From Cylindrotheca closterium (Eukaryota; Bacillariophyta; Bacillariophyceae; Bacillariales; Bacillariaceae), in the NCBI GenBank assembly GCA_933822405.4, contig CAKOGP040000158.1, positions 25,926-89,925 on the forward strand: a stretch of 64,000 nucleotides of DNA. Reading direction: 5' to 3'. The translations under genes and the position numbers were made by a program. The stretch's first letter is position 1; each line of letters begins with the position of its first letter. Below are positions 1,557-50,900 of this stretch, piece after piece. A model generated the notes under the pieces. It saw only the letters and a list, made by a program, of their open reading frames with translations. It made no database searches and was not told where the DNA came from.

Positions 1557-1694
1557 TTGCTGAGATGGCTCCCTTCCCAATATATGTATTTCTGTTCTAT
1601 AGAATTAAGTATACTGGGATTGGAACCATTCCATCTTTGTATCAACTACATTTAGCTTTTGCGAGCAAATTTTCAATCACCGCCTTAGTAGTTT

Positions 1695-8100: not shown

Positions 8101-8360
8101 TGACTAACAGTAAAGGTCTCCTTCATTCACTACCAGACGGAAACCAGCTAAACGGACGAATTCCCACAGAGTTGGGGCTGCTAAAGCCGCTTCGGGACCT
8201 CAGTCTTGCAACAAATTATCTTAATGGCGCTATTCCAAGTGAGATTGGAAAGCTGACAAGCTTGAGGACTATGAACTTTGTGGAAACAAATCTACAAGGC
8301 CCTATTCCGAATGAAGTCGCAGAGTTGCAAGCGGTAAAGCAAGTCAGTTTTTCCAATTGA
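5130..8360 (+). CDS. receptor-like membrane protein A: RK-IY repeats, RS-rich region, TM, LRR ectodomain
   Basis: Exons 5130-8058 and 8137-8360 are joined by a 78-nt phase-1 intron (donor GTAAAT, acceptor CCAG), giving 1050 aa. Residues 55-350 hold five ~35-aa repeats of the form RRKxIxxIYxxxxLTPQEKL. Residues 356-512 are an Arg-Ser repeat tract. A membrane span lies at 557-580 after RRRR. By the positive-inside rule the N-terminus is cytosolic and the rest is outside. An uncharacterised domain (630-812, with LEAALQRIL) is shared with genes B, C and D. Then come a Pro/Ser/Thr stalk, a plant-type LRR N-cap (about 893-965, W..GWLG..C..WYGIAC) and only about three LRRs. Paralogues B and D have more LRRs and a C-terminal cap, so A looks 3'-truncated. 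There is no kinase domain. A receptor or adhesion role is inferred from the architecture. Confidence 0.88.
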
Positions 8361-8889
8361 TAAAATGTTGATCGATATGACAGCACAGTAGAACTAAAAT
8401 GTAATAAATATTCATGTCATTTAACTTTTGCAGCATTCGAGTAAGCATGTCCTTCGCCTTGTGCTCGAAATCATGAACAAGACAAAGTCCTTGATATTAC
8501 GAAGAGGATTGGACTTTTACAACTGTTTTCATACAAATGATACCATTTCATACTCTAGGAATGAGCCAAGCAGGTTTCGACTTGCATAAGCTCTTTTTTT
8601 CGATCTCAATCGGAGCCAATAGTCCTATGGCTATTGTTGTTCCTTGCGAATTGTTGAATTGTTGCCTTCGGTGCAAATCATTACTAAAAATACTATATTT
8701 AGCCGCTTAGACATCTGCGCGTGCGCGAAATGGATTTCATCCTAAGTGTCTTTCGTGCGTCGGTGCACCAACGGACACAGTTTTGTGGTCGCAGAGTGGG
8801 ACCTACGTTTCCAACGCTCACAACTTCCCAAAAGATTGATTCGCTTCAAATCGTAAAAAGACAACACAACAGTAATATCAACAACAACA
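8361..8889. other. intergenic between receptor-like genes A and B
   Basis: There is no convincing gene here. A splice-acceptor-like TTTTGCAG near 8433 is followed by a short open stretch without LRR character. It may be decayed 3' sequence of gene A, but that is a guess. The last ~150 bases precede gene B and probably hold its promoter and leader. Confidence 0.5.
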
Positions 8890-25026: not shown

Positions 25027-26329
25027 AGCAACACGATGTTTGTTTTCTCCCCAATATCTCAACAACTATATAAACTGTGGATAGAGATCGCACGAATAGA
25101 TAGATTAGTGACATGGTGAAAATAAGATCTCGCAGTTTGCTTTTTTTGTCGTATAGCACTCTCCTTCAGCAACATAATTCCCAAAACTATTGTGTCACAT
25201 CAATGATGATTACCCGAAAACGTTTCACCTTTCACTATTGTTGACTGTTTGATTGATTCCAGCCGAATAGGGATGCAAACAAAATGCCCGCAGACCTAAC
25301 GCCAGCCTCGCTGTTTCCTCACCCTCAATGCATGGCAGGCTCCCACCTCCGACGTTTAGTGGACAAAATTGGAGTGGAAGGACAGACACATGAAATAAAT
25401 CACGAATTTTCACAAATTAAGTGCAAATATTATAGTACTACTGTAACGTGAAGAGGTATTAGACTATGTACGACATAAGAGTCACTATCTGTAGTCAGAA
25501 GTTGGAAGCTGAAGCCAAAACGCTTGAAGTCAAACTAAAAGAACCGTCAGCTCCAATTTATATGATATGACTGTGAATGTACTAGATCTTAGTACGGGAA
25601 GCAACAAGAGGCCAAGCATGATGTCCTCCTCCCGCCCTGCCTAGTATAGTACTACTAGTATTTGAAACAGAGCAGCACAGTATGTCCAAACAAAGCATTA
25701 TCCAGCGGACATCAAGTGTGGGGAACATGAATATCAAACTAGACAAGAAAATGTTAGGGTTGACTTCCATTGTTTTCGTTACACCATTTGCATTTGCATA
25801 GGTACTATGATAGGTATTATGTGCCCTTGAACAGCATGAGAAAACAGAACCATTTTTTTCTGCTTACTACTATAGGCTACTCTAGGCAATCGATCATCAA
25901 TCCTTTGACTTCAAGGAGGATATATCATCACCGCTGCGATCTTGACGTAACTCCAGAAAAAGGATGACAATAAGATATTACGTTACACTGCTGTCGTCCG
26001 CGGTGCTGGAATTCCTCGAAGTGCCCGTTGTTCTTCCAAGTGCTGCTGCGGACTGCTGATGAATGATCATTGCAAAGGACGAACGAACTTGGGGTAAGAT
26101 CGAAATAATAGATAATGCATGGCATTCTTTGTGAATGGGAAAAACAAACAGGAATGCTTACGGTGAGGCTGGATCCACACCAGTGACCTCGGGGATGGGT
26201 GGTGGTCTGGAGACGATGGCTGCAGTACCGGATCGAGATTGTTTGTTGGTTGATGAGTTTTCAATCATTGATGTAAGGAATTTCTAGACTTGCTGCATGA
26301 AGACAGAAGTGATATCAGTAGCCACTTAC
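25027..26329. other. 3' flank of GT90 gene and possible 3' exons of the disrupted gene
   Basis: No independent gene. After a good donor at 26329 on the minus strand, possible terminal exons of the transposon-disrupted gene lie near 26230-26160 (Pro-rich, open with a GTAAGC donor) and 26067-25975. Several acceptors are possible and I cannot choose between them. Confidence 0.4.
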
Positions 26330-26545
26330 CTTGTTCCCTGTAGCAAAAGGTTCCTTCCTTTGCACTGAAATCGTAAACGGGGTCTAGTACTGCGGAGGAG
26401 CTGTTTGCGCAATAATTGAATCCAGGTGGTTTGCGCCCGGTGGTCTCCTGCAAATCCCATTCCAAGGAACCACCGTCATACAAGCAAGTACATTTGCCCT
26501 CATCCGCGTCACCAACATCGAAAGAGTAGAAATCCTCGCTAGCAC
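26330..26545 (-). pseudogene. downstream part of transposon-split secreted-protein gene
   Basis: This minus-strand coding stretch continues in frame from the 5' part at 37974-37709 once the transposon and one AT copy are removed. It begins CASEDFYSF, is Cys-rich (GKCTCLYDGG, GFNYCANSS, GTFCYREQ) and ends at a GTAAGT donor in phase 1. The joined exon would be 484 nt. The stop/ATG arrangement on this side alone offers no plausible start, so the gene is interrupted in this haplotype. Function is unknown; the product is probably secreted. Confidence 0.85.
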
Positions 26546-26547
26546 AT
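26546..26547. repeat. target-site duplication AT (left copy)
   Basis: Matches the AT at 37707-37708 immediately outside the right terminal repeat. Exactly one AT is needed to restore the reading frame of the host exon. Confidence 0.85.
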
Positions 26548-26555
26548 CAGGGACC
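26548..26555 (+). repeat. left terminal inverted repeat CAGGGACC
   Basis: Exact 8-bp inverse of the right end. Similarity decays beyond eight bases. Confidence 0.88.
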
Positions 26556-27197
26556 CTAATATTTCTACTTTAAATTGTCCCAAATTTTGGCTGTAAATGC
26601 TGGACCCCTACCCTTTCTTTGGACTGCAAACAATTGCTAGACTTGCATTATAGGCTAAAGGAAGAATAAAATGCCGAAGCTTATTTTGAGTTCGAATTTC
26701 CAAAGCATTTGACATAAATTACAGTGTTTATCTTGAAACATTATTCCAAATTATAATTGCATTGTTTTACAGCCTTTTCTCCTTGTTTTGCCCTGAAAAA
26801 ACAAGACATAGTTTTGGTATTTATGGTTAAACATTTCTTTCAGGAAAATATTGGCAATTTAAATGCCGTTATATTCTCTTTTCAATTCCAATTCTCCCAA
26901 AATTAATTGTTGTCTTTATATCTAGACCCAAAATGTTGGAAATAGTTTGGAAAACAAGAAAGTATGTTGATTGAATTATTTGCATATGCTTGTACATTTA
27001 CCATAGTTTCCATTGTGAAAATTACATTTCGCTTTTGCATGTGACACTTTCTGCGTGGATTCAAGCCTGAAAATTAAGTCTCAATCACCATACCCAAAAA
27101 ACATTTTAGCTACCAACCTATAGATTGTATTTGGAACTTCAAAACTCAATTGAAATAGCATACGATATTTTCAAAACTATGCTGTACTATTTGGAAT
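26556..27197. other. left subterminal region of the transposon
   Basis: AT-rich, without ORFs of coding character. It holds CTGAAAAAACAA and GGAAAATATTGG words that recur at the right end, as expected for transposase-binding subterminal repeats. Confidence 0.5.
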
Positions 27198-28507
27198 TTA
27201 AATTTGGACCTGTTGCATTGCTTGGGGTGTCACCACTTCTCCCCTCTCTTGAACTATTGGCGTTGTATTGCCATGGGAGCCTGCAAGATCCGACCAGTTA
27301 TTTCTCAATGGGCGATTCCGAGCTCTCCTTGTTGTTTGAATCACCTCATCTCCACTAATTAGGAATGCCGTCTCAAACTCTTCCCCCAGTGTTGGGTTCC
27401 TACGCTGCTCCTCCAAGGTATCCCACAACTGATCATACAGATCGCAACCAGCTTGGCTCCACCCTTCCGACCTTTTTGAACCTCTTGAGTTGCTTGTGTA
27501 TTTGAAGCCAATGAATGTGGTATCATTATCTTCTTGCTCCCCCACGCTTGATGTAGTACTAGCCTCCTCGGAAGCTCCAGCAGAAGCAGTGGGACCACCT
27601 TTCCCTTCCATTTTTTTCTCCGCTATGCTCTTCCATACTTTATATCCATTGTCATAAGCAAGCACCATAAATGCCTCTAGACATTCTGGAAAGAAACTGG
27701 ATAATGTTTTTACCACACACTCCTCTTTAAATGCTTTACCATAAATAGCTTTTCCAAAATTCCTCAAGAATTTAATGTAGATCACTCTATTTTGTCGTAG
27801 CCCTGTAATCTTACCAGTAACTCGGTCTTGGGAATACAGCTCCTGGGGTCTTGGAGGATCCACACTGCCTGGGTCCATGAACATCTCTGATAGAGAAATA
27901 GATAGATAGGGTCAGGGCCGTGTAGTACAAGTTAGAAAACAGGATGGAATCATCCACGCCCTGTACTCACCAATCACCAAATTTTTCAAAGTGTTGCTCA
28001 GTGTCTGTCTCTTTTGGTTCAATGCCTTTCGGTACTCCTTTCTTCCATGGGACTGCCACCATGCCATTAATTCTCATTGACTTGCATCCAGAGCTAGTTC
28101 CTTTATTACATGAATATAAATGGGTCCATTCACAACCAACTCGCTCATACACATAATGAACAGTTGATAACGAAACAATATTGTGCAAACAGCTCTCCTT
28201 AGGGTTATATTCCACTTGACATAGTTGCAAGTCTGATCACGAAAAGGTAAACGTCTTACCACTGGCCTTGGCCCTTGATGTGGAACATTGTCTTCTTCAT
28301 TGGAATTGTTTGGAGAATTCCGTACCATGGTATTTGAGGACTGAAATTATGAAAAAAGTCCAGCTCCCTCCAAAATGCTTGTCCCTTGGTATTCTGGGTC
28401 CCAGTACCACCTCTACCTACTGATGGGTAGTTGGAAATGTGTAGGTTTCCTACCAAAGAAAGTACCAGGCATCTGGTCATTGCTCGACTGTGTAGCTTGT
28501 CTACCAC
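27198..28507 (-). CDS. transposon-borne multi-exon gene of unknown function (exon model incomplete)
   Basis: The best-supported part is the last exon, 27886-27198 (acceptor CTATCAG), encoding about 228 aa. It has a basic amphipathic N-terminal half (RVIYIKFLRNFGKAIYGKAF), a Ser/Thr/Glu-rich middle and a C-terminal ARNRPLRNNWSDLAG. A preceding exon about 28232-27978 (Cys-rich, VSLSTVHYVYERVGCEWTHL) joins in phase through donor GTGATT. Further exon-like open segments extend to about 28507 (SYPSVGRGGTG-type, KGQAFWRELDFF), but their junctions do not resolve into one frame by eye. The gene may be an accessory protein of the element. I recognise no domain. Confidence 0.45.
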
Positions 28508-29511
28508 ACCTACCTAAAATAATCCTGTCGCGTGCAATCTTCGTTCTTTGTTCGTTCTTTGTTCTACTGCGCCGTTTTTCTCAAAATCTCAACTTGAAAT
28601 TTGATTAGGTGGACCAATAATCAAACGACTAAGTGGATCGGCAATTTTTGCTCCATTTGATCGAAAATAAACAAATGATTCATCTGATTTAAAAAAATTA
28701 TTGATTCATCTGAACCAAAAAAAGATCCACGTCATTGGAGAAAACAAAGAAGACCAAGAAATAATCTTCCCCATAAATGTGTATTCGGCGAATTGAGCAA
28801 AATGCGAATTTTGCTTTTGAGCCCAACAAAACAACTCCGCCGAAAAATCACATTTCAATCACAACTCAAAAGAGTTCAATAATCATCCATCCACCCACTG
28901 ACTATTCATGCTAGAACACCACTGAGGGCAACATAGAAATAAGGCTAATGCTAAAGTGATTATGGTGTTTACAGCTGCCTGTTTTTACTGCTCTGCCTAA
29001 TGTTATCTTTGCTCCTGCAAACAGAGGTTTCTGATGGCCTTGCGGTCGCCAGCACATCCGTTTTCCATTGTTTCTTGGCATGTGCTGCTCCTCCTTTGTT
29101 GCTGCCTTCATAACCCCAACCAATATTTTAAGAGTTCTTAAACAATTTCTTTGCTCTGTTTCCAATTTTGTTACAGCCTCAGCGCCTTCATCTCTGTCCA
29201 GACTCTTTGAATTTTTTTTTTGGTTGCCATCCGGGTTACTTTTCTCCAGGATGTCACCAAAGTAAGTGCAAGATCCATGTTTTTACGTAAAACTGTCCAA
29301 AGACCACTTGCTTTGGGGTGATCCTCCAACAGGAAACTTCCAATGAAACGCATATAAGGTAGAATATCTATTTAACATAAAAGAATATTACCTTCTCGCC
29401 AAAAACATGTTCTGTTAATTATATTTTTAAATAGAAGCCCTTCATTACACAACATCCAAAAACACAGAAGCAACAATTCACACGCACATCATCAAACACT
29501 TCAGCACCACC
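28508..29511. other. internal spacer of the transposon, possible short minus-strand gene
   Basis: The 28508-28910 part is AT-rich and non-coding, with a repeated TGATTCATCTGA word. On the minus strand, 29353-28911 holds a segment beginning MRFIGSFLLEDHPKASG that continues in another frame (EAVTKLETEQRNC), so it is either a spliced short gene or a decayed one. The last ~150 bases should be the leader of the 1163-aa ORF. Confidence 0.35.
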
Positions 29512-32500
29512 ATGAAGACAGTCCATTCTTCACGGTCACACACCAAACCTTGCTTGAAGAAAGGTCCCCAAGCCAACAAAAGAAAGTACAACAAGGGGCA
29601 TGCAGCATCCTTATCTGTGAAAAAGAAGAGGACCAGCACCATGGAAGAACCTAAAAGAAAGAAACCGGAGAGTGTTGACCTTTGCAGGGAATATGATATT
29701 CTCCAGCCCAAGCTACAGCTATTCCAAGAGGCGACCCCAGAGGAGCTGTTGGCCTCCCTGATTGCATCTACAGGCCTCACTTTTGCAAGGGAAACAAAAA
29801 GCCACAACCGATCCACTGCAGTATACATTTTCTTTTTCAGCAATTCATTTGGTGTCCCACCACACGAACTGTTCAACAACAAGCTGAATGGATACTTTAT
29901 AAAAAAGAGTGGAAAAACTTTCTGTGGTTTCTCTCTGGAACCAGTTAACAAACAGGATCTTGAACCTCACATTGGGAAAATGCAACAATATAACCTGGCT
30001 TTGTCAGAAGAGCGTCTTCGTGTTGTGACAAATGTGCTTTCTGATTCCCCCTCACCACAGCCAAAATCAATTGCAACATTGTCTAGGGATGCTTGGGACA
30101 TGCTGATCAGTAGTTCCACAATCTACCACTGTTTGCGGTATGCCCTTGATTGCATCAACACCAGGACAAGTATTCCATTTAGAACATCATTCAAATTTGG
30201 TATTCAAATGACAGAAGATTGCCACTCTATTGATCAATACCGCAACAGGGCAATTAATTTGATTTTGGTACTATCCAAATCTGTTGGAACTGACGATCAT
30301 ATCTTGGATCAAGAGCTATCAAAGATGCTTCAGGATCAGAAGTCGTCCCCTAAGCAGTTTGCAACACTTGTGGACCAACTTGGCCAAGATCTTCAAGTTC
30401 AGGAAGTGGATCTGCTGGCCTCCCATTACAAAGTCCTCCAGGATTTTGTCGCCACTTTCAAAGAGAATGTTACAGGACGGACTTTATCAAAAATGGCACT
30501 CACCCATGGTGGCAAAGAAAAGGGGAAGTACTTTGATCTATGGCTGCCTGTCCTTGCTGTTGGCTTCTACACCACAGTGATATTTCCAAGGAATGGGAAA
30601 GCAATCTCCCAACTCAAACTTGACCTTAAAGATATTATTTGCCCTGGGTCCAGCAAGAAACCTAAAGCAAAACCAAAACCAAATGGTCACAGTTCCAAAG
30701 ATTCAAAAAAAGGGCCACCATCTGGAGGGAAACCTAAACAATCAAACAAACCATTAACATCAAAAGATCTATCCTCAGGAGTTACCAAACCCCAATCTGC
30801 TGCACAATCTGAACCAAAATCTGACAGGACCTTGGAATCAGAGTCAGATTCATGCTCTTCATCTTCATCAGAGGACCAAAGTACTGGGGTGTTGGAGGAG
30901 GATGCTGAATTTGAGAATCAAGTGCCATTTGATGTTCAATACCGTGTTCCAACAGGTGATGAGTGGAAAGACTATAAAACAAAGTTTCATATGGAATGCT
31001 GGCTGCATATCCAGAACCCATACTTCAACATAAAGTTGGATCTTTCAATGCAAGAAACCTATTGCACATCAAAATTTTCTAAATACAGGCATGGAAGACG
31101 GGTCAAGTGTGGGACCACAAATTATAATCCCACATCAGCAACTGCCACAAAAGGGTTTTTCTTAATTCCCGAATATGCACCAGTCACAATATCTGGAGAG
31201 ATCCAGGTATCTCAAGCAATGTCCAGGGTTTGGAGATCCATGGCCTCTATTCCCTCTTGGAATCCATTGTTTCCCACCAATGACCCCTCATTGCCTAATG
31301 TGGATCTATCACTTCTGATTAATGGTGCTATCTTCATGCACAGACAGAAATCCAAGAACTACAACCAAAAACGTTCCACAGAAGCCCTTCAAATTCCATT
31401 TGGACTAGTCAATCGTATGCGTCAATGGTGCGGATTTGAACTCCTGGAGTCATGCAGGGAGCTTAATTGTAAACAGAAGACAATGTTTATAACAGACCTT
31501 GGATGCTTATGTGAAAACATATTTGCTCATATGCAAAGGTTCCAGGAAATGGCAGGGAAAAAACCACTCTGTCCAAATCTTAACCGGGATCAGAGATATG
31601 CTGCCAACTTTCGTAAGAAGCTTAGACTACCGAGGGAATCTAAAATGGGGAAGGAGGCAGCCTTTGTCACCTTCCAACCTATTGGGCCAAATTTGATGCC
31701 ACACAACCATGATCACACAGACAGATTGAATCCTAGTGAAGAAGGGTATCATGAGACTGGATGCCATTCACAAGTTGTGACATCAAATGGCATTGACATG
31801 TATCTGTTTCAGGTCATCATTGCCAGTCGCAATTGGATATCAATAGATTGTAAAAATGGGATCCATCTTTACAATCCAGTGGTATGGGATGATGATGAAG
31901 ATGATGAGGATGATCCAATTGAAGCATGCAATGAAAATGTTGGAGATCAACATGGTCATGGTTATAGTGATGCAGACAGAGAATACAGTGAAGGAGACGA
32001 GGTGGATACAGATCAAGATGATGGAGATCAAGAAGAAGTGGAGACTGATGAATACACTGGAGAAGATGAGCAGGAAGGACCAATGGAGGAATATTGTTCA
32101 CTTGGAGATCAATTCCAAGCATACTCTAAGCAATGTTTGGAGGGGGGTCTAGCACTTCATCAATGCCATGAGAAGGATGGTGATCTCATAAATTTTTGCT
32201 GCCCATATGTTCCTGTTGATCTGCTGGTCCCTCTGGTGCAACTCTACCATTCTGAAGTCTATCATGGTCACTTTGAAGACAAAAGGACAGCAGTACAGCC
32301 CTACTCCAGCACATCCCTTGGGAGAAGAAAGACTGCATTCCCACATGCAGAATATTTAATGTGCGGACCTGGAAACCTGCACAAGCATGAGATCAACCTG
32401 ATGAATGCAATTAGGGCTGCACTTGGCTCCAGATTGGTTGGGGATTCCTGGTACATTGACTGTGGATGCATATGGACAGTGAATGGGATGTACCATCAGC

Positions 32501-33003
32501 CATCCCACATTAATCACAGGAAGGCGCTGAAGCCAGGGCATCAGGCTTTCATTGGACACATGGGTCTGACTCCAGAAGGTTCATTGCTAAGGCTTGGCTT
32601 CCTGTCCAAAGAGGCAACAGACCACATTGGCCAGGGGACTAATGTTCCATCCAAAGTTCAAGTTGTAGAGGGTGTCCTGTTCCTGCATATCCCATTTGGT
32701 TCTCTTCTACTTATAGATGCTCGTCAGTTTCATGGGGGACACTATGGATCCGACAATCAAAAGAGATTCCATTGCATACTCTCGAACTTCCAATGGGTTG
32801 AGAACAACGATGCTGACGAGCTGTGTCTACTTTCCCAGAGACTTGAATCCGGAAACATCAAAGCACCAAAAACAGGCCTTGATGATATAGAGCATGAAAT
32901 GAAAGAGTGTGTCGAAGCACAAAACCAGTCAAGGAAGGATTACATTGCTGCTTATCTGCTTGCCAGGAGTCAGCATAGGTCTGATGATGGCACTGTCATC
33001 TAA
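29512..33003 (+). CDS. transposon-borne 1163-aa protein, possible C-terminal DSBH (2OG-oxygenase-like) domain
   Basis: Single uninterrupted ORF. The N-terminal ~40 residues are strongly basic (nuclear-localisation-like). Residues 50-390 are a probable helical domain without a family I recognise. A Lys/Ser/Pro and acidic linker follows (380-465), then a second globular region, an acidic Asp/Glu-rich insert (about 790-865) and a C-terminal domain (900-1110). That last part has GHMGLTPEGSLLRLGF (H1016), a hydrophobic strand FLHIPFGSLLLIDA, QFHGGHYG (H1074 and H1077) and KRFHCIL (R1085). The order strand, His-Gly-Gly, then Arg before a strand resembles the distal half of 2OG-Fe(II) dioxygenases. 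The first ligand pair HxD is not evident (H-M-G instead), so activity is uncertain. Confidence 0.7.
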   Translation: MKTVHSSRSHTKPCLKKGPQANKRKYNKGHAASLSVKKKRTSTMEEPKRKKPESVDLCREYDILQPKLQLFQEATPEELLASLIASTGLTFARETKSHNRSTAVYIFFFSNSFGVPPHELFNNKLNGYFIKKSGKTFCGFSLEPVNKQDLEPHIGKMQQYNLALSEERLRVVTNVLSDSPSPQPKSIATLSRDAWDMLISSSTIYHCLRYALDCINTRTSIPFRTSFKFGIQMTEDCHSIDQYRNRAINLILVLSKSVGTDDHILDQELSKMLQDQKSSPKQFATLVDQLGQDLQVQEVDLLASHYKVLQDFVATFKENVTGRTLSKMALTHGGKEKGKYFDLWLPVLAVGFYTTVIFPRNGKAISQLKLDLKDIICPGSSKKPKAKPKPNGHSSKDSKKGPPSGGKPKQSNKPLTSKDLSSGVTKPQSAAQSEPKSDRTLESESDSCSSSSSEDQSTGVLEEDAEFENQVPFDVQYRVPTGDEWKDYKTKFHMECWLHIQNPYFNIKLDLSMQETYCTSKFSKYRHGRRVKCGTTNYNPTSATATKGFFLIPEYAPVTISGEIQVSQAMSRVWRSMASIPSWNPLFPTNDPSLPNVDLSLLINGAIFMHRQKSKNYNQKRSTEALQIPFGLVNRMRQWCGFELLESCRELNCKQKTMFITDLGCLCENIFAHMQRFQEMAGKKPLCPNLNRDQRYAANFRKKLRLPRESKMGKEAAFVTFQPIGPNLMPHNHDHTDRLNPSEEGYHETGCHSQVVTSNGIDMYLFQVIIASRNWISIDCKNGIHLYNPVVWDDDEDDEDDPIEACNENVGDQHGHGYSDADREYSEGDEVDTDQDDGDQEEVETDEYTGEDEQEGPMEEYCSLGDQFQAYSKQCLEGGLALHQCHEKDGDLINFCCPYVPVDLLVPLVQLYHSEVYHGHFEDKRTAVQPYSSTSLGRRKTAFPHAEYLMCGPGNLHKHEINLMNAIRAALGSRLVGDSWYIDCGCIWTVNGMYHQPSHINHRKALKPGHQAFIGHMGLTPEGSLLRLGFLSKEATDHIGQGTNVPSKVQVVEGVLFLHIPFGSLLLIDARQFHGGHYGSDNQKRFHCILSNFQWVENNDADELCLLSQRLESGNIKAPKTGLDDIEHEMKECVEAQNQSRKDYIAAYLLARSQHRSDDGTVI

Positions 33004-33103
33004 ATTAAATATTGGAATATTGGTAACATATAGATACTGATAACTACCCAAAATCTAAACTAAATTTTGATACCAACATATTATAAAGATATTAATGGCT
33101 ATC

Positions 33104-36100
33104 CTACATAGCACTCTCACGTCTTGCTCTTCCCCGACCATAGTCAGGAGATGTTTGGCTCATAACTTTCAGGAAGCTAGGAGATTCCAGAAACAGTCCT
33201 GGCCAGTCATCTATCGCTGTCCAAATTATATCAAAACTGGTGGGGGAAGTTAAATTGCCTTTTCGGGTGAAAGCATTACCCTGAAGATGGGCACCGAGGT
33301 CAACACAATAGATGCGATGGTCAATGATATCCAATGGGAAGGATTGGAAGACTGCCTGATGAAAGCAGCTGCTACCCATGGAAACTACCTCTTGCTCCAT
33401 CTTCCAGTGTGAAAAGAGTAAGGAATGGTTGTCACGGGCTGTGCAAGTTGGATCTCTCTGTGAGCCAACTTGCAAAAGGCATCTCATGGTTCCCAATGAT
33501 GGCTCCAGGCCACATGGGGAACTGCCACTAGCCTCTTTGTCACTAGCCTCTTTGTCAAACCAGATGGCACCTAGACGGCATGGGCTCCCAATGTCCTCTG
33601 ACGATCCTGCAAGAGATGGCGACTCCCTGACTTGGGCATGAACATAGTCATTCCATGCACCACCCTGTCTGTAGTTGTCATGTGCTCTGCATACCTCATC
33701 AAAAATTTTGGCCTCAGTGTAGATGGGAATTAGCCTTGGCCTGTTTTCAAATTTCTTCATAAACCAATCAACTGCTGCTGCTGATAGAGGTGGAGTGGCT
33801 ACAGCCTGAGTTTTGGAACCCAAAAGTTTGGTAAACATCCCAGTCTTTGTGCAAAGAGTGAACTTCTCAGAGGAGGATGGAATCCAGTCACCCAAGCAGG
33901 AAGCTTGGCACTCTAAAATCTTTTTGTTTGGAGACTGAAAGAAGCTGGAGACATGGCCGAGGAGTGAAGCTTCATACACCCGGTCACATATCTGTTTGCA
34001 GTGAATGATGGCAGACCGGTTTTGTGCTGTAAGACTAGGTAGCTTTGCCCAAATCTTTAGATTCCTTTCACCAGTGGAGGAGTTGAATCCATCAGATGAA
34101 CCAAACCTAATGAGATCCTCCAGGAAGTGTGACAATTCCACAAATTTCCTAATCTTCCATCCCTTGGTCCCTTCCCCCCGATTAACCCCATGAACCAGTA
34201 CTCTTAACATCATTGATAGAGAAAAGGAATAAAGTTCACAGATTCTGCTGGCTTCTGAGTTGTTTTGGGCACCCAGATGTGGTGGGTTTTTTAAAAAGGA
34301 ATGGAATGTTAAGATGCTTTCCACAAGGTAGGTGAACTCTGGCATTGTAAGGGCAATGGACCTTTGACTCCCCGGGATATTTCTTGGATTGTTGGCCACA
34401 GAAGGTTTCCATAACTTGTTTACTCTGTCAGCTGAGGGATGCCATGGCTTGCAATTATCTTTCATATTGTGAAGATTACAATCTATAAGAGTTGGGGTAT
34501 AGTCAATATCAGGCAGCCTTCCATTCTTGTGAGGCTCTGCATGTTCCTTCCAAACAGGCTTGATCCTTTCTTTGAGTACCCTACGTAGAATTCTTTGATG
34601 ATGTGAAGGTAATAGTGGATCCAAATCCTTGTGGACATAGGTCAATCCTACAAAATCTAAGTATTCTTTGATTTGGACCCACTCAAGTGTCTCAGAAGTC
34701 TCTGGTTCATCAGGGTAGTTGCCACTGTCTTCTTCTGTATTGATATCATGTTCCTCCCCATCTCCATCATCATCAGAATCACTGTCTGGAGAATCAGCAT
34801 ACTCAAGTGTGGTTTCAGTAACAACAGGTGGAGGTGTTGTAGGATGGGTTGTGCTTGCCCCACTGATGATGTTCTTGCTCATAGAACGTGCCTGTCGTCT
34901 CCTTCTTTCAGCATCAAATTTGGGGTCAAACCTTTCCTTCAAGAGTCCCTGTCCTACCTCTGTTTGAAGTATAATAGAGAGCAGAAAGAATTGACCAAGA
35001 CGTTCTGATGAACTCAAATTGGTTAGTTTGGTATATCCTTGCCTGAAGGTGACTCTGGGGTAGTTCTCCCTCTCCCTGCTCCTGTTTTTATTGATCCCAA
35101 AAAGAGACTGAACATAACAGTCAATCTTAGTCAATGATGATTCTGTCATGGGGCCAAAGAGAACCTCTAGTATCATTGGAATGAGGCCCTCCTCAATTGT
35201 GTGCATGGGATCAGTGCTGGTTGCCTCCAGTATGCCATTCTCTGTGGGACCAAAATCAATTCCATTGAAGGCATTGAGAAGGCTGTGGCATCCTAGGACT
35301 TTGTGCAGTATGAGATCACAGATCAGCATACGTCTTTGTTTGGTCCGGACAAGAAGGGTTCTATCCTTCTTTGCTGCATGGCTATCAACATATTTTCGCC
35401 AGCCTTCAAAATTAGGGGACTCTGGGATAACATTTTGAAATTGAGATGCCTGGGCAACAAAGGAATAGTATTGACGACCATAGGATGGGCCAAGAGACCC
35501 CTGAGAGAGTTTGTCCACAAATTGTGCAATGAGAGGAATGCATTTGTGTAGTGGCTTATCCGCTTCTACAGCAGGGCAGAGACATCTGCGAGACATTCTA
35601 GGGGATGTTTCAGATTGATCTGCAACCCTTTGGGCTAGCATATCATTGCTCAGATTGTCACCAATCATTGATGCTAGTGGGGGTATGATGCGGAAGGAAC
35701 CACAAAAGGCACCACGTCTGAATAACATTTGGGGTCTATGGGTTTGGAGAGTCTTCAGAGGTTCTAGAAGAAGAGAAAGACAGTGGTGGTAGTCTCTCAA
35801 TGCCAGGCTACGCTTGTTTGTGGTGGTGGTTGGAGAGTGTTGGTGCTTGAGCCATTTTAGACTTGGGACATATCCAAGCAAGATCCAGTTCTCTGCGATT
35901 TCTCTGGAGCCCTGGCTGAGATTAGCAGAGGTAACTGCAAATGGTTCAAGTCCATTCTTCTCTATCCTGTCAATGCCAGTCTTGTCCATGTATGCCACAA
36001 GTGGATGAAGAAGATAATCACCACTATCCAAGTCAAGCTTGTACATTTCCAGGGCCTTCTTGTACCATTCGCCAGAGACAAAGTCAGGGATGGTGGGTGG

Positions 36101-37177
36101 TTCCTCCAGGGCCCCATCCATGGTATTGATAAATGGGGACACATCCTTGTCTTGAGGTGTCCTGATGCTGAGGTTACCATAATCAGCAAAAACATTGCTC
36201 ATAAGATGATCCTGAAGCCGTGCCTGAAAATCAAATCTATGGATCCTTGTCCTCAGACCAGATTCAAGATTCACATCAAGAACAGTGGGGGGGGATGCTC
36301 CAACAGTTTTCTCTATGCGTTTGAGAAGTGATTCCCTCTTTGTAATGTAAGGACTTCCAAGATGGAACCCAGCATATGTCCAATTTGCTTCTTGAAGAAT
36401 CCCAATAATCCTGTCTGGAAGGTAGAGGGGAGATCCAGCTTGGTAGCATTCGAAATGGATTTTGGCTAAGACTTTGTCTGCAGGAAGGAATTGGTTTGAA
36501 AATTGCCTTTGCTGTTCTTCCATTGGAAAGTTGTACACCTTACCGATTTCCGAGTTTAATTTGCAACCCATAATGGTGGTAGTGGTGGTCCTAGGATAGT
36601 CTTTCCTATTGGATGCATTCGGCAGGGGCAAGGGTGCATGCACTGCAAGGCTGCTGTTTTCCAAAGGTGGGCAAGTTGAGTTGCATTCAATGAGAAGGTT
36701 TGGTGGGAATGGTTGTCCAAGGTGGAGCCTCTCCATTTCTCCAGCAAAGTCAGTAAGTTCTGGATCAAAGTTGACATCATCCACATCTCTAGCTGCTATT
36801 GGTGGGGGGGGTTCTGGAACAGGAACAGGGGAACGAACACTGCGCCTTCGTTTGGAACTCCTGCAAGCTGCTGCAGCCAGGGAGGAGGACCACTTTCTCT
36901 TCTCCCTAGTATGGGGAGCTTCCTGCAGTGAAGATTTTGGCTCATCAGATTGGAACTCGATTTCTGAGGGCAGTACTGGGGGATTGTAAACTTGTTGGCA
37001 AACATATTCCGAGGGGTTGATGGGGTTCTGATTGAGCTGCTGCCTCTGCTGCCTCCTGCCATTATGTCTATCAATTGCACCTGGACACCAACTGGAATTG
37101 TTTTGATGCTGGATAAGAGCATTCACTCTGCGGAATTCATCACCACAGTCCTTACATTGGTAGGGGTTGGAGGTCAT
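33104..37177 (-). CDS. transposon-borne 1357-aa C2HC zinc-finger protein, probable transposase
   Basis: Single ORF. The N-terminus has a zinc finger (residues 6-33, CKDCGDEF..ALIQHQ..WC; C2HC pattern). A disordered Pro/Ser-rich region (40-190) with basic runs follows, then a large domain. Around 398 lies AYMDKTGIDRIEKNGLEPF, followed by ENWILLGYVPSL. This D-K-T ... LGY(V/I)P arrangement is what I recall from Plavaka-type and similar giant transposases, where the Asp belongs to the catalytic core. Later segments include ATSTDPMHTIEEGLIPMIL (a second candidate acidic cluster, H-T-x-E-E), an acidic stretch (about 780-810) and a Trp-rich C-terminus. The reading is inferred from size, finger and position in the element; I cannot verify the DDE/D triad. 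Confidence 0.7.
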   Translation of the reverse strand: MTSNPYQCKDCGDEFRRVNALIQHQNNSSWCPGAIDRHNGRRQQRQQLNQNPINPSEYVCQQVYNPPVLPSEIEFQSDEPKSSLQEAPHTREKRKWSSSLAAAACRSSKRRRSVRSPVPVPEPPPPIAARDVDDVNFDPELTDFAGEMERLHLGQPFPPNLLIECNSTCPPLENSSLAVHAPLPLPNASNRKDYPRTTTTTIMGCKLNSEIGKVYNFPMEEQQRQFSNQFLPADKVLAKIHFECYQAGSPLYLPDRIIGILQEANWTYAGFHLGSPYITKRESLLKRIEKTVGASPPTVLDVNLESGLRTRIHRFDFQARLQDHLMSNVFADYGNLSIRTPQDKDVSPFINTMDGALEEPPTIPDFVSGEWYKKALEMYKLDLDSGDYLLHPLVAYMDKTGIDRIEKNGLEPFAVTSANLSQGSREIAENWILLGYVPSLKWLKHQHSPTTTTNKRSLALRDYHHCLSLLLEPLKTLQTHRPQMLFRRGAFCGSFRIIPPLASMIGDNLSNDMLAQRVADQSETSPRMSRRCLCPAVEADKPLHKCIPLIAQFVDKLSQGSLGPSYGRQYYSFVAQASQFQNVIPESPNFEGWRKYVDSHAAKKDRTLLVRTKQRRMLICDLILHKVLGCHSLLNAFNGIDFGPTENGILEATSTDPMHTIEEGLIPMILEVLFGPMTESSLTKIDCYVQSLFGINKNRSRERENYPRVTFRQGYTKLTNLSSSERLGQFFLLSIILQTEVGQGLLKERFDPKFDAERRRRQARSMSKNIISGASTTHPTTPPPVVTETTLEYADSPDSDSDDDGDGEEHDINTEEDSGNYPDEPETSETLEWVQIKEYLDFVGLTYVHKDLDPLLPSHHQRILRRVLKERIKPVWKEHAEPHKNGRLPDIDYTPTLIDCNLHNMKDNCKPWHPSADRVNKLWKPSVANNPRNIPGSQRSIALTMPEFTYLVESILTFHSFLKNPPHLGAQNNSEASRICELYSFSLSMMLRVLVHGVNRGEGTKGWKIRKFVELSHFLEDLIRFGSSDGFNSSTGERNLKIWAKLPSLTAQNRSAIIHCKQICDRVYEASLLGHVSSFFQSPNKKILECQASCLGDWIPSSSEKFTLCTKTGMFTKLLGSKTQAVATPPLSAAAVDWFMKKFENRPRLIPIYTEAKIFDEVCRAHDNYRQGGAWNDYVHAQVRESPSLAGSSEDIGSPCRLGAIWFDKEASDKEASGSSPCGLEPSLGTMRCLLQVGSQRDPTCTARDNHSLLFSHWKMEQEVVSMGSSCFHQAVFQSFPLDIIDHRIYCVDLGAHLQGNAFTRKGNLTSPTSFDIIWTAIDDWPGLFLESPSFLKVMSQTSPDYGRGRARRESAM

Positions 37178-37386
37178 ATTGAGTGTGAGAGAAGTGGAGA
37201 ATAAAGATAGAAAAGCAATAAAAATAAATTTGGAAAAGAAATGCCTGAAGTGTGTTGTCGAAATAGGTGGCAGTCATTCAGTGTCATAATGCCTCAAATA
37301 AAATGTACGAAATTAGTTTTAGTTGACAGCAGGAGCCTTTACTTTATATTATAATGTCATTTATTGCAAAACATTATTGCAGGGGG

Positions 37387-37630
37387 GGAGTGTAAAGTAT
37401 AGTTCTGAAAAAACAATGAATGAAAACATGAAACATATTGCAGAAAAAAAGTAGCAAATATAAACATGGAAATGCCCAGAATAAAATGTTGGGTATTAAT
37501 TCGATTTACGGGTGCCAGTAAAAATGTCAATTTTACACACAATTATTGACAATACTTATTTCAAAAAAGGAGTGCGGAATATTGCCCTAAGAAAACAAAG
37601 GATGGAAACATGGAAAATATTGTAAAACAG
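37387..37630. repeat. right subterminal repeats of the transposon
   Basis: Two diverged copies of a ~60-nt unit, beginning GGAGTG at 37387 and 37569, share AAAACAA.GAATGGAAACATG.AAATATTG in approximate form. No coding content is seen between the finger protein start and the right terminal repeat (37178-37698). Confidence 0.55.
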
Positions 37631-37698
37631 AATTGTCATTTATTTCAATATAAATTTGCAGAAATTGAGTGGCCAAATGTCCAATCCTGGAATTTTCT

Positions 37699-37706
37699 GG
37701 TCCCTG
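37699..37706 (-). repeat. right terminal inverted repeat GGTCCCTG
   Basis: Exact inverse of the left end. Confidence 0.88.
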
Positions 37707-37708
37707 AT
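37707..37708. repeat. target-site duplication AT (right copy)
   Basis: Second copy of the host dinucleotide, in the Ala-Cys codon pair of the interrupted exon. Confidence 0.85.
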
Positions 37709-37974
37709 GCATCCACTATATCGGACAGTAGAAAGCCTTGAAGCCTTCCTGGGGTGGAAAGACACAGCTCATGACATTCCGTGGCACTCTTCGGCTCCAA
37801 TGTTTCGCACAAATCATAACCTTGGCCGCCATGATTATTACTACTATAACCTAGCAGTACTGGTACGCAAAACCCTTCACCAAGATATTCGGTTCCCGGA
37901 GGGGCTTCGGGGGCTGCACTCCTTGCGAGAGAAACAGTGCTAGCCAGCAACAACGCAAATACTAGAAACTTCAT
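37709..37974 (-). pseudogene. 5' part of transposon-split gene, signal peptide of secreted Cys-rich protein
   Basis: Begins MKFLVFALLLASTVSLARSA, a classical signal peptide with probable cleavage before APEA. It continues Cys-rich (FCVPVLLGY, YDLCETLEP, ATECHELCLSTPG) to ..SDIVDA, where the transposon starts. Reading through the element gives a stop after about 20 foreign residues. The downstream half is at 26545-26330. The spacing C-x-x-C in CHELC resembles PAN/apple or EGF-like extracellular modules, but I would not assign a family. The whole gene is a recently broken host gene, not an old pseudogene, since no other lesion is seen. Confidence 0.85.
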
Positions 37975-43167: not shown

Positions 43168-46100
43168 ATGTCCTTCCTGCCACAAGATTTATCGGCACTA
43201 TCATATACAATAGACAACACAGACACAATGCAAGCAACAGCCATGATGGATGATTCTAATGAAGGAACAGCTTCTAACGTCTCCGATAACAATCCTTCGC
43301 TTGGTAAAGGCGATGTCATCATTGGGGATCTGTCTTCATCGGATGCTTTTGTCCCAGATATCGTAGCTGAGATTGTTGGAGATTTGTCATCTTCAGCAAG
43401 ATCAACGGCATCGCCAGATCGGAAATCCAAAAGTCGTGGATCAAGAAGCAGTCAATCCAAACGCAAACCTGCAAGACAGTCCTCAAAATCTCGTTCCAAT
43501 TCGATTGAGGATGATCTTGATTTATTGAACGATCAGTCACGCGGTCGAAAATCTGGTCACTCTTCCTCAGATCGATCCACTCGCACTCACCACCGATCCT
43601 CTAAATCTCGTTCCAATTCAATTGAGGATGATCTTGCTTTGAGCGAACGGTCACACGATCGTAGAACTGGCCATTCTTCCCCCCATCGATCCGGTCGCAG
43701 TCCCCATCGATCTACTCGCAGTCCCCATCGATCTACTCGCAGCAGCTCATCCAAGACTCCTGGTGCCTCCAAGTCCTCCAAGCAAAGAACCACCGCACGA
43801 TCACAGGTGGCTGTTCCTGGTGCTACAAGTATCTCAGACTCGAGCGATGGCAAATCAGCTAGCCACAGGAAAGCATCCAAGTTGGAGAGCACACGTGCAC
43901 CAAGACGTCATCGTGATTCCAAAAAGTCAAATGAAAAACTGAAGATCACAACTTCATCCAAAGTCTCAACTCCTGGGGCTACAAGTGTCTCGAACGATAG
44001 CCACTCAGCAAGCAACAGAAAATCATCCAAGTTTCGATCCAACCGATCAGAGACTTCAGCTCCAGGGGCTAAAAATGTGTCAGGCTCTAGCCAATCAAGG
44101 AACGGGAAATCATCCAAGTCCGCAGGGGGAAAGGAAGGAGGCAAGGGTGCCAAAAGGTCTGCCGGTGGATTTCATGTCGTATCACAAGGCTCGGTATCGC
44201 GTGAGACTCGAAAGGCGGCAAGAAATCAGCGACCAAATAGTCCAATTGCTCCATTAGCCACTCCGTTGGATGAAAAGGATATCAATATCGCGGGGACTTC
44301 CGCCGAAGAAGATAACGAAATAGAACTTGGCAGCGAGCAAGCTCTGAAAGCAAGGAAAGATGAAGAAAGCGATGATGACAGTACCATTGTTGCTGCCCCG
44401 GCAATCCCACCCAAATTGTGCTGCGGAAAGTACAGGATTGCTGCGTTCTGCTGCGGAAAGTGCGGGATTATTGCCTGTGTGCTCCTTTTGTTGATTGCTG
44501 GAGGAATTACAGCATGGCAGCTTCTGAGTAACGATGGAAATACAGAAACTTCTCGCGGTATCGAATCTACCAAAATATCTACATCCAGCTCCCCAAGCGC
44601 AAGCCCTTCCAAGCAGGAAGGTACTACTGGTGTCGACGGCTTGACATCACAAGAGATCTGCGATGCAATCGCCATTGGCAGGCCTGTCGTGGGACAGGAA
44701 AACGCAGCGCTTCAAGAGTACGACTTATTGGTGGACGTTGTATTGGATTCCGAGACTGAAGAATTGCCGCCGCATACCCTGGAGCTTGAAGAAGCGATTC
44801 AGCGTGTTATGATGCCTTCTTTAGCTGGCTGCATTGGTCAAGGTAGGGACATTGAAAGTCCTATAGTCAATTTATTGGTCGATGCTGAACCTAGTATCGA
44901 TGCTGTTTGCTTACCACATTCGGAGATTCCTTGCCATCGCTATGTGATTCATCTTGACATGTATGTTGAACGGATCGTAGCTTCCTCTGACTTTTCGGAA
45001 GAGATTATGGAAAAGTTTCGCGAACAACCATTGGTAGCACTTTTAGAGTTGGTTTCACCCTTCAAGAACATCACCGTTGTTGATATTGTGCCCGACATTG
45101 ATTTTTCTACTGATTCGACAAGTCCATCTGGTGAGTACAGGAGGACGGTGTGTGTTTTAGTTTCTGTCCCGCTCACTAATCTTTGCAACAATCATGTTTC
45201 TTTCCACAATAGAATCGCCGTCTACAGATCCAACAGGAGCGCCAGCTACGTACCCAACAACGGAACCTCCCACAAGGTCGCCGACAAAGGCGCCGTCCAT
45301 TAATCCGACAAGATCACCTGTCACATATCCAACAACGGAGGACCCCACAGCAACACCGAGCATAGCTCCATCACGAGTTCCTAGCAGCATTCCGACTTCT
45401 ATCCCAACATTGTTTCCGGTAGTTGGCCTGACTCTACGCCCTAGCACGCTTGAATCCAGTATCCCCACAAGTGTATCAACCAGTACATCACCAAGTAAAT
45501 CGCCGAGTGCTTCATTGGGTGCATCATCCAGTCCATCATTGGATGTTTCATCCAGTTCGTCGCCGAGTGCATCACCGAGTGTATCATCCAGTGCATCATC
45601 CAGTGTCTCCCCAAGTGCATTGTCCAGTGCCTCGCCGAGCGTCTTATCGAGTGCATCACCGTCAACTAATCCATCATCCAGGCCCTCAATGTCGCCAACA
45701 TTTCAGATTTCGTCGACACCTTCCTTTCGGCCGTCTGTCAAAGCTTCCCTTTCGCCATCAAGTGAACCTTCTTCTCAACCTTCACGGTTGCCATCCTCTG
45801 AACCCTCGAACGCCCCATCGACTTTAGAACCTTCTGCACCACCTTTGGCTGGACCAAAGGTTTGTTTTGTAACTTCCGCAGAGCTCTCTTTTGCAGTGGG
45901 CAACTGGTTCTCGTCCGCTGAGTTGCGAGCATCCGTCGAAGCCCAATATGGACTGATGAGGGACTGGTGTTTTGGTCCCGGGGTTACTAGCATGCAGGCC
46001 CTCTTCATTGAGAGGTCTACTTTCAATGAAGACATCGGGAACTGGGATACCTCTTTTGTCACTACTATAAATGAGATGTTCAAGGACGCATCATCGTTCA

Positions 46101-46615
46101 ACCAAGACATATCATCGTGGGATACATCCTCCATCACGAGCATGCAAGATACTTTCAACCGCGCATCGGCGTTCAACCAAGACATTTCATCATGGGATGT
46201 TTCTTCCGTCACTCAGATGAGGAGCATGTTCCAATCTGCAACGTCGTTCAATCAAGACATATCATCATGGGATACGTCAAACGTCATTGTCATGCGACAG
46301 GTGTTCGCCGGGGCAGAATCCTTCAATCAAGATTTGTCATCATGGGATACTTCAAGAGCCACAAACATGCAAGAGATGTTCTTTAAAAGTGGCTTCAATC
46401 ACGATTTGTCATCATGGGATCTTTCTTCCATCAGAAATATGAAAAATATGTTTTGGAGAGCATCGGCCTTCAGTCAGAACTTATGTGCATGGGGCCCAAA
46501 GCTTGCTGCCGAGACGGTGGTTTCAGGCATGTTTGCGAACACCAACTGTCCATCAAAGTCCGCTCCAAACCTTCTGGTGAATCCCCGGGGTCCATTTTGC
46601 CATTTGTGTGTCTAA
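43168..46615 (+). CDS. receptor-like membrane protein C with BspA-like (DUF285) ectodomain
   Basis: Exons 43168-45130 and 45213-46615, with an 82-nt phase-1 intron (GTGAGT, AATAG), give 1121 aa. The cytosolic region (1-425) is Ser/Arg/Lys-rich. It has duplicated SKSRSNSIEDDL segments and a repeated PGA motif (TPGAS, VPGATS, TPGATS, APGAKN). A Cys-rich juxtamembrane stretch (CCGKYRIAAFCCGKCG) precedes the span at 433-452. The shared ectodomain (497-642) has LEEAIQRVMMPSLAGC. A long Ser/Thr/Pro stalk (655-865) follows. Instead of LRRs, the end (about 890-1110) carries six DUF285 repeats, FNQDISSWDTS..M..MF, the BspA-like surface repeat. Domain order and the intron at the stalk match genes A, B and D. 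It is probably a cell-surface protein; the ligand is unknown. Confidence 0.9.
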
Positions 46616-47922
46616 TATATTATAAACGTTTCTACATTAGTATATTTTAAAAATTCACCATTAGCCTGTGTTGTGTGAAAAATTGTTTGATACTTGTCAA
46701 GAAGGTGATGATGACAAGAGTAATCGAAGATTACCCGGCGCCGCCTCCACTCCTGGGCTTGAATCGCATGATGTAGTCTTTGTCTGGAGAGATCGCGCAC
46801 GTATGCTACCATGGAAACTGTGGCAAAAGCCCGATGCTACATACGAGAAGCGAGTAGGTTTGGCACAGTAGCGAGGTACTAGGTTAGTGACTGGTTTGCA
46901 CCGAGGTCGAATCATAGGATTCGAAAAGGACAATCAATAGGATTGACAGACAAACCCGGACCAAATGGGGTACCGAGCTATGGTGCAAATGAGAGAGAGG
47001 GTGGTGAGGGCGGGAAAAGCAAAAAGAGCTGACGGTCTTGACCGAGCAGCTAAACTCCTTCTATCGCCTCCATCATCCCACAAGCTCCCATTGCGAACAA
47101 TGTCTTCTCCAAATCTTCCGTCCTCTTCGTCGACACTCTTCGCTCCGTCCGCCAACCGTGTACTTCACTGAAGCGACGCGCCGTAATCGACACGACGGAA
47201 ATTGAGACTAAGGAAGAGCTAGAAACGCCCATACGCCTCCCGTCTTGCCGATCTACGATCAAGCTGATATCCAGCATATTCAATAATATGTTTTCAGACG
47301 ATGATTATAGTCCTATACAGTAGAATATTCATTATTCTCCAAGATCTCTCATGGCGAGCTCGAATTTCACAAATTTCTTTACAGTTATTGGAGACCGTTC
47401 ATCTAACGGACGCATCCGCTAATTGAATCAAGGTTCACTTTGTCCAGAAATGTCCCTTGACAAACGTTGATCTCACTACTAACGAACAGGCCCAAGACCG
47501 GAATGAAACACAGTTGGTTAAATAGTTTCCACACATATGAAAGTGACTAGCGCTTTTTTGTGAAACAATGTTCTTCCATAAGTGGAAAAATGTTCTCGAA
47601 TCGCACGTACTTATGGGCGTGGAGAAGACTCTCATGAGGAGAAAAAGGTGCGTGCATTCTTCAATTTGAGGCTTGGGGGATCAAAAAGATGTGTTCTTCA
47701 AGGACCATAGGTAGAAAAGGTACGGCATCAGATGAAAGGGCACGCGCAACCCATCATGCAATAATCTTCTTGCAAACGCCACAACATTTGAAAGTGGATC
47801 GCAATCAAATATAAAATAATCATATCCATCATATTTTTTTCTCATTGGGTTTCAATTTGCCTAGTCCTATTGGCAGAATATATTATAGTACACACAAAGG
47901 ACAATCTCGCAAAAGACAAAAG
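46616..47922. other. intergenic between receptor-like genes C and D
   Basis: Several short ORFs on both strands, none convincing. No repeat or RNA gene seen. The AT-rich last ~150 bases are likely promoter and leader of gene D. Confidence 0.5.
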
Positions 47923-50900
47923 ATGGACGAAGCGCAACAAGAAGCCATTGGCTACATTATCACCGGCAGCGATCCAGAAGAGGACGAGGAGGAAGAAGCA
48001 GAAAAACCACGTTCTTCTCACAAAAAACAGAGCTCGACCGCGCATTCTTCTCCCATCAGACGAAGCAGTCGTCCTCGCAGTCGTCCTCGCAGTCGTCCTC
48101 GCAGTCATAAGCCTACTGGAAGAACAGGCAACGATGATGCCAATCGAAGACCTCGTAGCAGCCGTGGCTCTACCGCAGCAACCCCAGCACCATCAGCACC
48201 ATCTCTTGGGATTGCCATTGGAGCCATTGCTTCATCCGGAGATCACAAAAGCAGACACAAGAAGGATGGACGTCCACGTCGTCAGTCTTCTACGGACAGT
48301 TTGGATGCCAGCAAAAGATCTACTCACTCTAACCACTCTGGCTCTGCTCTTGTTCCTGGAGCGGTCGCTTCCTCGGGAGAACACAAGAGCCGCAAAAAGG
48401 ATGGACGTCCACATCGACAGTCTTCTGTGGACAGTCTCAAAGACAGTCATCGATCTTCCACCTCGTCACCAACTCGATCTTCTAGAGGCCATCGAAGCAG
48501 TCGTGATTCCAAAACAAAGGAAAAGGAAAAGGAACGACGCAGCACCATGAGAGCCCCTCTCGCTCCAGGTGCCGTGTCGAGTACAGCAGAAGATCGGTCC
48601 GCCCGCAAGTCTTCTCGGCATTCGACTCATCCTACTGCCTCCAATTCTTCCAAACAGCAAGACAAGGAGGATCGAGATGTCAAACGTAAATCGCGCCATC
48701 ACAAGGCAGCTCATACTCCTGGTGCTCTGTCGGCAGGTCCTGGAGATTCCAAGAGCTCCAAAGCCAAGGCCAAGGCCAAGTCATCCCACCACGACGACAG
48801 TGAATTGTTTTCCGCGCCAGCCACCACTGGTGGTGACTTGAATTCCGAAGGAGAATTTAACGTCATTGCCGAAATGGTAAATGACGATGAAGAAGAGGAA
48901 CGGGCCAAGATGGAAAAACACTTGCAAGTGCCATCCGGTGGCGGTGATGCTGCTGCTGCTGCTGCTGCCGGGGCGGGTGACATGAACCACATGGCCAGCA
49001 TGGCCAATATGCCACGACAAAAGAAACAAGGATTGTCGGCCAAACGAGTTTGCGTCCTACTCGTGGCTATACTATTGATTGGTGGAGGTATTGTGGGGAT
49101 CTTGTTTGGGATTGGCGTTCTTTCCACTGGAGGCGGCGACAACAAGGCTGCCGACCAAGCTCTACTAGAAGAGACAACAACTCCCACCGACTTGAACTCC
49201 AATGCTCCTTCTACACTGGCACGAACCACTGAAATGCCCAGTAGTGCTCCTACCTATTTGGTCTATGAGAGACCCAGTTTGGAGGATTGCAATTTGATCC
49301 AACAGGGCGAATCCTTGCCCAATCAATCTTTGACAACCATGGACCGCAATTATGCCCTCAACTTGGAAGCCGACTTGACCGTTGCTACGAATCCGGAGTT
49401 GCTATACGAATCCATGCAAGAGTCCATTCAGCAAACCATCATGCCCAAATTGGCGGGATGCACTGACTTGTTCGTCCAACAACAACGTCAAGGGCAGCGA
49501 GGAAGAAACTTGGCAACGACGACTATTCATGACCCTAGCAAGTATTGGATTCGCAATGGTCTAGTCATTACACTTCTGGATCAAGGAACTTGCGAAAGCG
49601 ATGCGGTGGCGTGCATCAAGGTCGAAGTGGACGTTACCATTTTTGTACAAGACGACTCCTCCTCCCACAGCAATCTGTACTTAATTCGAAGAATATCGGA
49701 TGCCTTTATGGAATCTGGTGACTTGGTAAAAGAACTAGGTTTGGGGTCTCCCTTTCAAGAAATGCGGTTCATTGGATTGCGGACATTAGATCCCACCGAA
49801 CAACCCAGTCCATCTCCGTCCCAAGTGCCAAGTCAGATACCAACTTCGATGCCTACCAACACGGCGTCCTCCAGCCCCAGCTCGGCTCCTGTTGACTTTC
49901 CAACGACCCCACTACCCACTTCTGCGGATACGACGCCGGTGCCTACTTCTGCGGATGCTACACCGGTGCCCACAATGGATGCATCTCAAGCGCCATCGTC
50001 CACTCCTACCACACCGGCACCCACCAAGGCTCCGACACCACCTCCCACGCCCTTTCCTTCCGCTGCTCCGGCTCCAGGTGTGACTTCTCGACCAACCATC
50101 ATGCCATCGGAAACACCCAGTAATATTCCAAGCAGTATGCCCAGTAGTCTTCCCAGTGGTCTTCCCAGTCTCGATCCTTCTTCTCAGCCTACCAGTGGAC
50201 CAACCAGTAGACCAACTCTGGTGCCTACTAATAGTCCGACATCCGAGCCCACCTTTGGACCAACCCATACGCCGACCAATAATCCAACGGATACTCCCAC
50301 AACTCCGCCTACCAGTGTTCCTACCTACGGACCCACGCAATCTCCTTCGGAGCGGCCCTTTGATCGGAGCATGGACATTGGTGACATTTTGGCCAACTAT
50401 GGAATTTCTCCAGTGGACTCGACGGCTTTGAATTGGTTGATCAATACGGATACTTGGACAACCGAAGGCTCGGATTACCTATGGGTTGAACGATATGCCA
50501 TGGCAGTGGTCGTTCAAAAGGCCACCAAGTCTAGTTGGAGACTATCGGGTCAAGCGGTATGCAATTGGACAGGAGTTACCTGTTCCAATGGTGTCGTCAC
50601 CAAAATAGATTGGAAGGATAAAGGTCTAAGTGGAAGCATGGCAATGGAACTTGGGCTCCTAACCACTTTGAAGACTTTTGAAACTCGTAAGTACAGGCAG
50701 TTGTTTTTTGTCCATGATGAATGATGATGGGCGCAAGCAATGATAGATGTGAATGTATTATTGTATGGGGATCTAACTAGAATTTGTTTTTCTTTCTCAA
50801 CAACCGAAACAGGGAACGATAAGATTGCGGAAAATGGAAAAATACCAGCTGCCTTCACACAATTAACCAATTTGGAGTATCTGTTCATGAGTAAGTGGAA

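Follow-up and report, generated by a model that had tools for sequence, protein, structure and literature searches.

A complete DNA transposon of the Plavaka kind lies within the window analyzed here, a 64,000-nucleotide stretch of DNA from the pennate diatom Cylindrotheca closterium. We hold with high confidence that it represents a recent PlavakaB-like insertion, extending from 26545 to 37709 and flanked by a CA duplication, in exon 1 of a two-exon gene encoding a secreted protein (Table 1). The element itself is of a known kind; diatoms are a host group for which we found no description of Plavaka in the portions of the open-licence literature consulted.

Table 1. Positions in the window of the element, its reading frames and the interrupted host gene
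Feature	Position	Strand	Evidence
Plavaka element, PlavakaB-like termini	26545..37709 (11,165 bp)	.	Ends of other copies, two uninserted sites, P0002
Left terminal inverted repeat, CATCAGGGACC	26545..26555	+	Sequence
Right terminal inverted repeat, + strand GGTCCCTGATG	37699..37709	-	Sequence
Left target duplication, CA	26543..26544	.	Sequence and join test against P0002
Right target duplication, CA	37710..37711	.	Sequence and join test against P0002
ORF1, transposase, 1357 aa	33104..37177	-	Pfam Plavaka at residues 362-522
ORF2, 1163 aa, no known family	29512..33003	+	Relatives in genome; motifs at 735, 1073-1087
ORF3, 228 aa, no known family	27198..27884	-	Relatives in genome
Host gene exon 1, first part	37710..37974	-	Sequence, P0002, join test
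Host gene exon 1, second part	26330..26544	-	Sequence, P0002, join test
Host gene intron, GTAAGT...CAG	26220-26329	-	Sequence
Host gene exon 2	26158..26219	-	Matches last residues of P0002

The reading frame of ORF1 contains no internal stop, and its product matched the Pfam Plavaka family (PF18759) with an E-value of 6.6e-11 and a score of 42.4 bits (cut-off 26.3). We searched the C. closterium genome (47.6 Mb in 572 contigs, the window being part of contig C18) and found the Plavaka domain above the Pfam cut-off at nine loci, compared with none in the 14 control genomes. Further transposase loci above this cut-off are located on C524, C74, C149, C43 and C115. Residues D398, D507 and E1037 of ORF1, which we take to be candidate catalytic residues, are conserved in the relatives on contigs C12 and C238. 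The motifs RRCLC at residue 530 (C-x-C, with one residue between) and LHKC at residue 543 are kept or nearly so in the relatives; both follow D507, and the CMCT clade calls for C(2)C and H(3-4)H between the second D and the last E. ORF2 and ORF1 are in facing orientation, ORF3 is close to the left end, and the element is bounded by a perfect 11-bp inverted repeat, CATCAGGGACC...GGTCCCTGATG. No Rfam match was obtained within the window.

An earlier note on this DNA had described an insert of approximately 11.16 kb that interrupts a minus-strand exon running from 37974 to 26330 and followed by a GTAAGT donor, and this is confirmed in the sequence. An intact counterpart is available in P0002, a public C. 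closterium protein of 179 residues that is encoded on a 2,961-bp contig and known from the protein alone. P0002 reads LLSDIVDASEDFYSF and then, after REQ, AIVSRPPPIPEVTGVDPASP, which corresponds to exon 2 of the host gene. Among 1,800 joins tried around both ends, 352 were open to the natural stop, including those that retain one AT or one CA; exact P0002 was obtained from only eight, all of which excise 11,167 bases and which include the CA join and not the AT join. P0002 contains eight cysteines, whereas the AT join would make nine (VDACASED, compared with VDASED in P0002). P0002 is matched across the junction with CA and not with AT as the retained dinucleotide, and the restored exon 1 calculated from the coordinates of the CA join is 478 nt rather than 484 nt. 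That note had also regarded both ends as fixed by restoration of the frame: the AT join is indeed open, but so are the other joins counted above, and frame restoration by itself can mislead about transposon ends. Deletion of AT..AT, deletion of CAT..ATG and retention of both AT were tried as well, and none of these three joins gave an open host frame.

In the inserted allele, the element enters after residue 90 of 179; the frame follows P0002 up to that residue, continues with 19 foreign ones and then reaches a stop. Judged from the sequence, this allele would presumably have lost its function, as the natural knockout proposed in the earlier note implies. No Pfam family covers P0002 up to an E-value of 10, and a search of the genome for a second copy of the host gene returned its own two halves, besides a match on C485 with an E-value of 0.31. 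With an intact public counterpart and exact element ends, the presence, absence and excision of the element become testable by PCR. P0002 might instead be a gene model or transcript in which the element is skipped like an intron, with no empty version of the gene; a join at AG..AG boundaries would encode the same residues, and only the protein is available for comparison. We consider this highly improbable, because the contig that encodes P0002 is too short for an 11-kb element and AG..AG splice borders are unusual.

The position of the ends was examined in other copies of the element. The earlier note had placed the element at 26548–37706, with the ends CAGGGACC and GGTCCCTG and with AT duplicated within a CATG target. 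These two sequences do lie where it placed them, AT does occur outside each, and removal does restore the frame; they are not, however, the ends of the element. CAT was found outside CAGGGACC at all eight ends considered, namely, both ends in the window, one end each on C481, C275, C259 and C374, and both ends on C12, where C259 was counted as a single end because its three tandem copies share one flank. The alignment begins at 26545 for the left end on C481 and extends to 37709 for the right ends on C275 and of the three C259 copies, so that copies go three bases beyond the limits given in the note (CAT before CAGGGACC), an outcome that the note itself had named as refuting its reading. The right end on C12 is TTGATG with a decayed inner repeat, and it was placed by TGATG, where the blastn alignment also stops. 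The motif CATCAGGGACC had 42 matches in the genome, compared with seven for the reversed control; nine of the 42 were already known, and, by eye, one of the other 33 (a left end on C435) runs into the element. This ninth end was left out of the count, since the pattern by which it was found requires CAT.

Sites without the element allowed us to assign these three bases. In the C259 array, two uninserted units read AGTA followed by TTGATTC or CTGATTC, whereas the inserted units read AGTA followed by CATCAGGG; a third uninserted unit departs at the same point into other sequence (TCACC). The right flank of the C275 copy is AAGTGTTTG, and its uninserted relative on C259 is preceded by TGC, not by ATG. 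Because CAT/ATG is lacking from the uninserted counterparts of both the C259 and the C275 site, we regard CAT/ATG as part of the element, which refutes the narrower version at these two sites; the eight ends with CAT and the termini given for PlavakaB in PMC12730594, which include CAT, also speak against it. Moreover, the AT join differs from P0002 by two residues and would therefore require a separate 6-base loss. An AT duplication at 26548–37706 is thus extremely unlikely, and CA takes its place as the target duplication, although a match of 2 bp at a single site has a chance of 1 in 16. The duplication could also be GCA with the right end one base shorter, which yields identical empty DNA; CA is preferred because the 11-bp repeat is then perfect. 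On C12, CC (or CCC) flanks both sides of CATC..GATG. A misassembly, with the element absent from the host gene in nature, finds some support in contigs C481, C487, C259 and C374, which end near or inside copies and indicate a repeat that is hard to assemble, but is extremely unlikely, given that each junction coincides precisely with an end of the inverted repeats, that 2 bp are duplicated there and that the two flanks belong to a single gene.

The insertion at 26545–37709 is best explained by a cut-and-paste transposon of the Plavaka lineage that recently entered exon 1 and duplicated 2 bp (CA). A DDE-type transposase would bind the 11-bp repeats and excise the element as DNA, and the excised element would then be joined to target DNA cut with a 2-bp stagger. 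The products of ORF2 and ORF3 may act as accessory proteins that aid transposition or counter host silencing.

We further compared the element with its relatives elsewhere in the genome, where ORF1, ORF2 and ORF3 each have counterparts. The right-hand 2,374 bp are present on C275 at 99.79% identity, after which that copy turns into other sequence. Because this partial copy is nearly identical, we infer recent movement within an older family. The element is probably young, and its description as complete, apparently young and inside an exon stands, with the C275 copy and the intact P0002 in agreement; the earlier note had assigned it to no superfamily, which the transposase now identifies as Plavaka. 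Identity to the element was lower elsewhere, at 87% for C481 (372 bp), 90–96% for C259 and approximately 66% for C12 where alignable. The C12 relative contains all three ORFs in the same order, and its matches are interrupted by two TGA in one of the three transposase pieces and two TGA in ORF2; C12 and C374 share 98.2% identity over 3,182 bp, and the C374 contig stops inside ORF2. A search of the C. closterium genome yielded no other near-identical copy that is complete, and the copy number is a lower bound because contigs C481, C487, C259 and C374 end near or within copies. At 2958-6967 of C259, three tandem copies of the element's right end occur with an identical flank, beside a satellite-like array, and one 2,005-bp unit agrees with the next at all 2,005 positions; these tandem copies reflect either recent amplification or an assembly artefact.

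In 13 of the 14 alignments of ORF1–3 to their relatives, which represent stretches and not independent elements, third codon positions were the most divergent; the exception, the C275 pair, has only three codon differences. This pattern suggests that ORF1, ORF2 and ORF3 are all under coding constraint. The relative on C238 contains a transposase and ORF3 and has no match to ORF2, with a different long frame at that place. There (491-8249), a 1316-aa Plavaka transposase faces an unrelated 1153-aa frame, whose C-terminal part includes GWHLDKGG, with ARHHGTIIPGNQSRK in a neighboring frame; both appear oxygenase-like by eye. This 1153-aa frame had no Pfam or PDB match. A relationship between it and ORF2 was rejected, as the hhalign probabilities were 0.2 and 0.6%, compared with 0.4 and 0.1% for two controls. 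On C149, a weak relative of ORF2 (E-value 6.7e-4) is located approximately 4 kb from the transposase locus.

The two putative accessory proteins, ORF2 and ORF3, are conserved across related elements and have no known family. ORF3 had no Pfam or NCBIfam match. For ORF2, no Pfam family was found up to an E-value of 1, and all NCBIfam matches were far below cut-off; one of the five members of the ORF2 domain showed a weak Pfam match (Clr2_transil, E-value 0.029). Comparison of an ORF2 profile with PDB sequences gave no match up to an E-value of 10, and comparison of ORF2 with the PDB gave one chance-level match (E-value 0.85). Two AlphaFold2 models had mean pLDDT values of 28.8 and 30.6 and were unusable for judging whether ORF2 adopts the double-stranded beta-helix of Fe(II)/2-oxoglutarate oxygenases. 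In public proteins, a first search recovered only ORF2 itself among the 8,000 candidates scored, and a search with residues 495-800 had P0003 (C. closterium) as the sole other match; the Pfam matches of P0003 were below cut-off and mostly within low-complexity stretches. This relative is detected by tblastn on contig C167, and 28 pattern matches in viral contigs included no relatives.

Two motifs of ORF2 are shared by every relative that covers them: HxDxxNP (735) in the window copy and in four of four relatives, and FHGGHYG...RFH (1073-1087) in the window copy and in two of two. A second HxD candidate reads HVD, HVD and HLD in three relatives and HIN (999-1001) in the window copy. We presume a likeness between these motifs and the HxD...H...R signature of Fe(II)/2-oxoglutarate oxygenases, and judged on motifs only, ORF2 might tentatively be assigned to that type of enzyme, an assignment that we regard as possible and do not favor. 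An anti-silencing role for ORF2 is unlikely. Tet_JBP (PF12851) had no match in ORF2, and none anywhere in the genome up to an E-value of 10.

Comparison with known systems places the element closest to PlavakaB of fungi, which has 5΄-CATCA..TGATG-3΄ termini and duplications of 2 or 3 bp according to Kojima (2025, PMC12730594). The shared features are a Pfam Plavaka-type transposase, the CATCA..TGATG termini and a 2-bp duplication, and it is from its termini and duplication that the element appears PlavakaB-like. In contrast to the fungal families, some of which encode TET/JBP according to the same source, the present element has a diatom host, an ORF2 and ORF3 without known family and no Tet_JBP match; we found no open-licence literature on TET/JBP in diatoms. 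It would follow a similar route if ORF2 were a non-TET 2-oxoglutarate enzyme that, with ORF3 as a helper, reverses host silencing, having been acquired separately and in parallel to the fungal TET/JBP, but we consider this combination improbable. EnSpm/CACTA (CMC), described in PMC12730594 as a related transposase class, shares CA..TG ends with the element but has CAC..GTG and a 3-bp duplication, compared with CATCA..TGATG and 2 bp here. Outside fungi, published accounts report giant gene clusters flanked by Plavaka transposase in Amoebidium (PMC11244446), and, in the green alga Auxenochlorella (PMC12633428), name Plavaka/EnSpm-Plavaka and describe DNA transposon families that, taken together, are polymorphic between haplotypes; these two cases share with ours a Plavaka outside fungi and are likened by description, not by sequence comparison.

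Elsewhere in the window, positions 60300-60622 align with C275 sequence outside the element copy at 68% identity across 330 bases and may represent another repeat. Several long frames were observed at 5130-11175 and 43168-50724, with P/S/T-rich and hydrophobic stretches and, by eye, ends that resemble leucine-rich repeats; they look like a locally expanded family.
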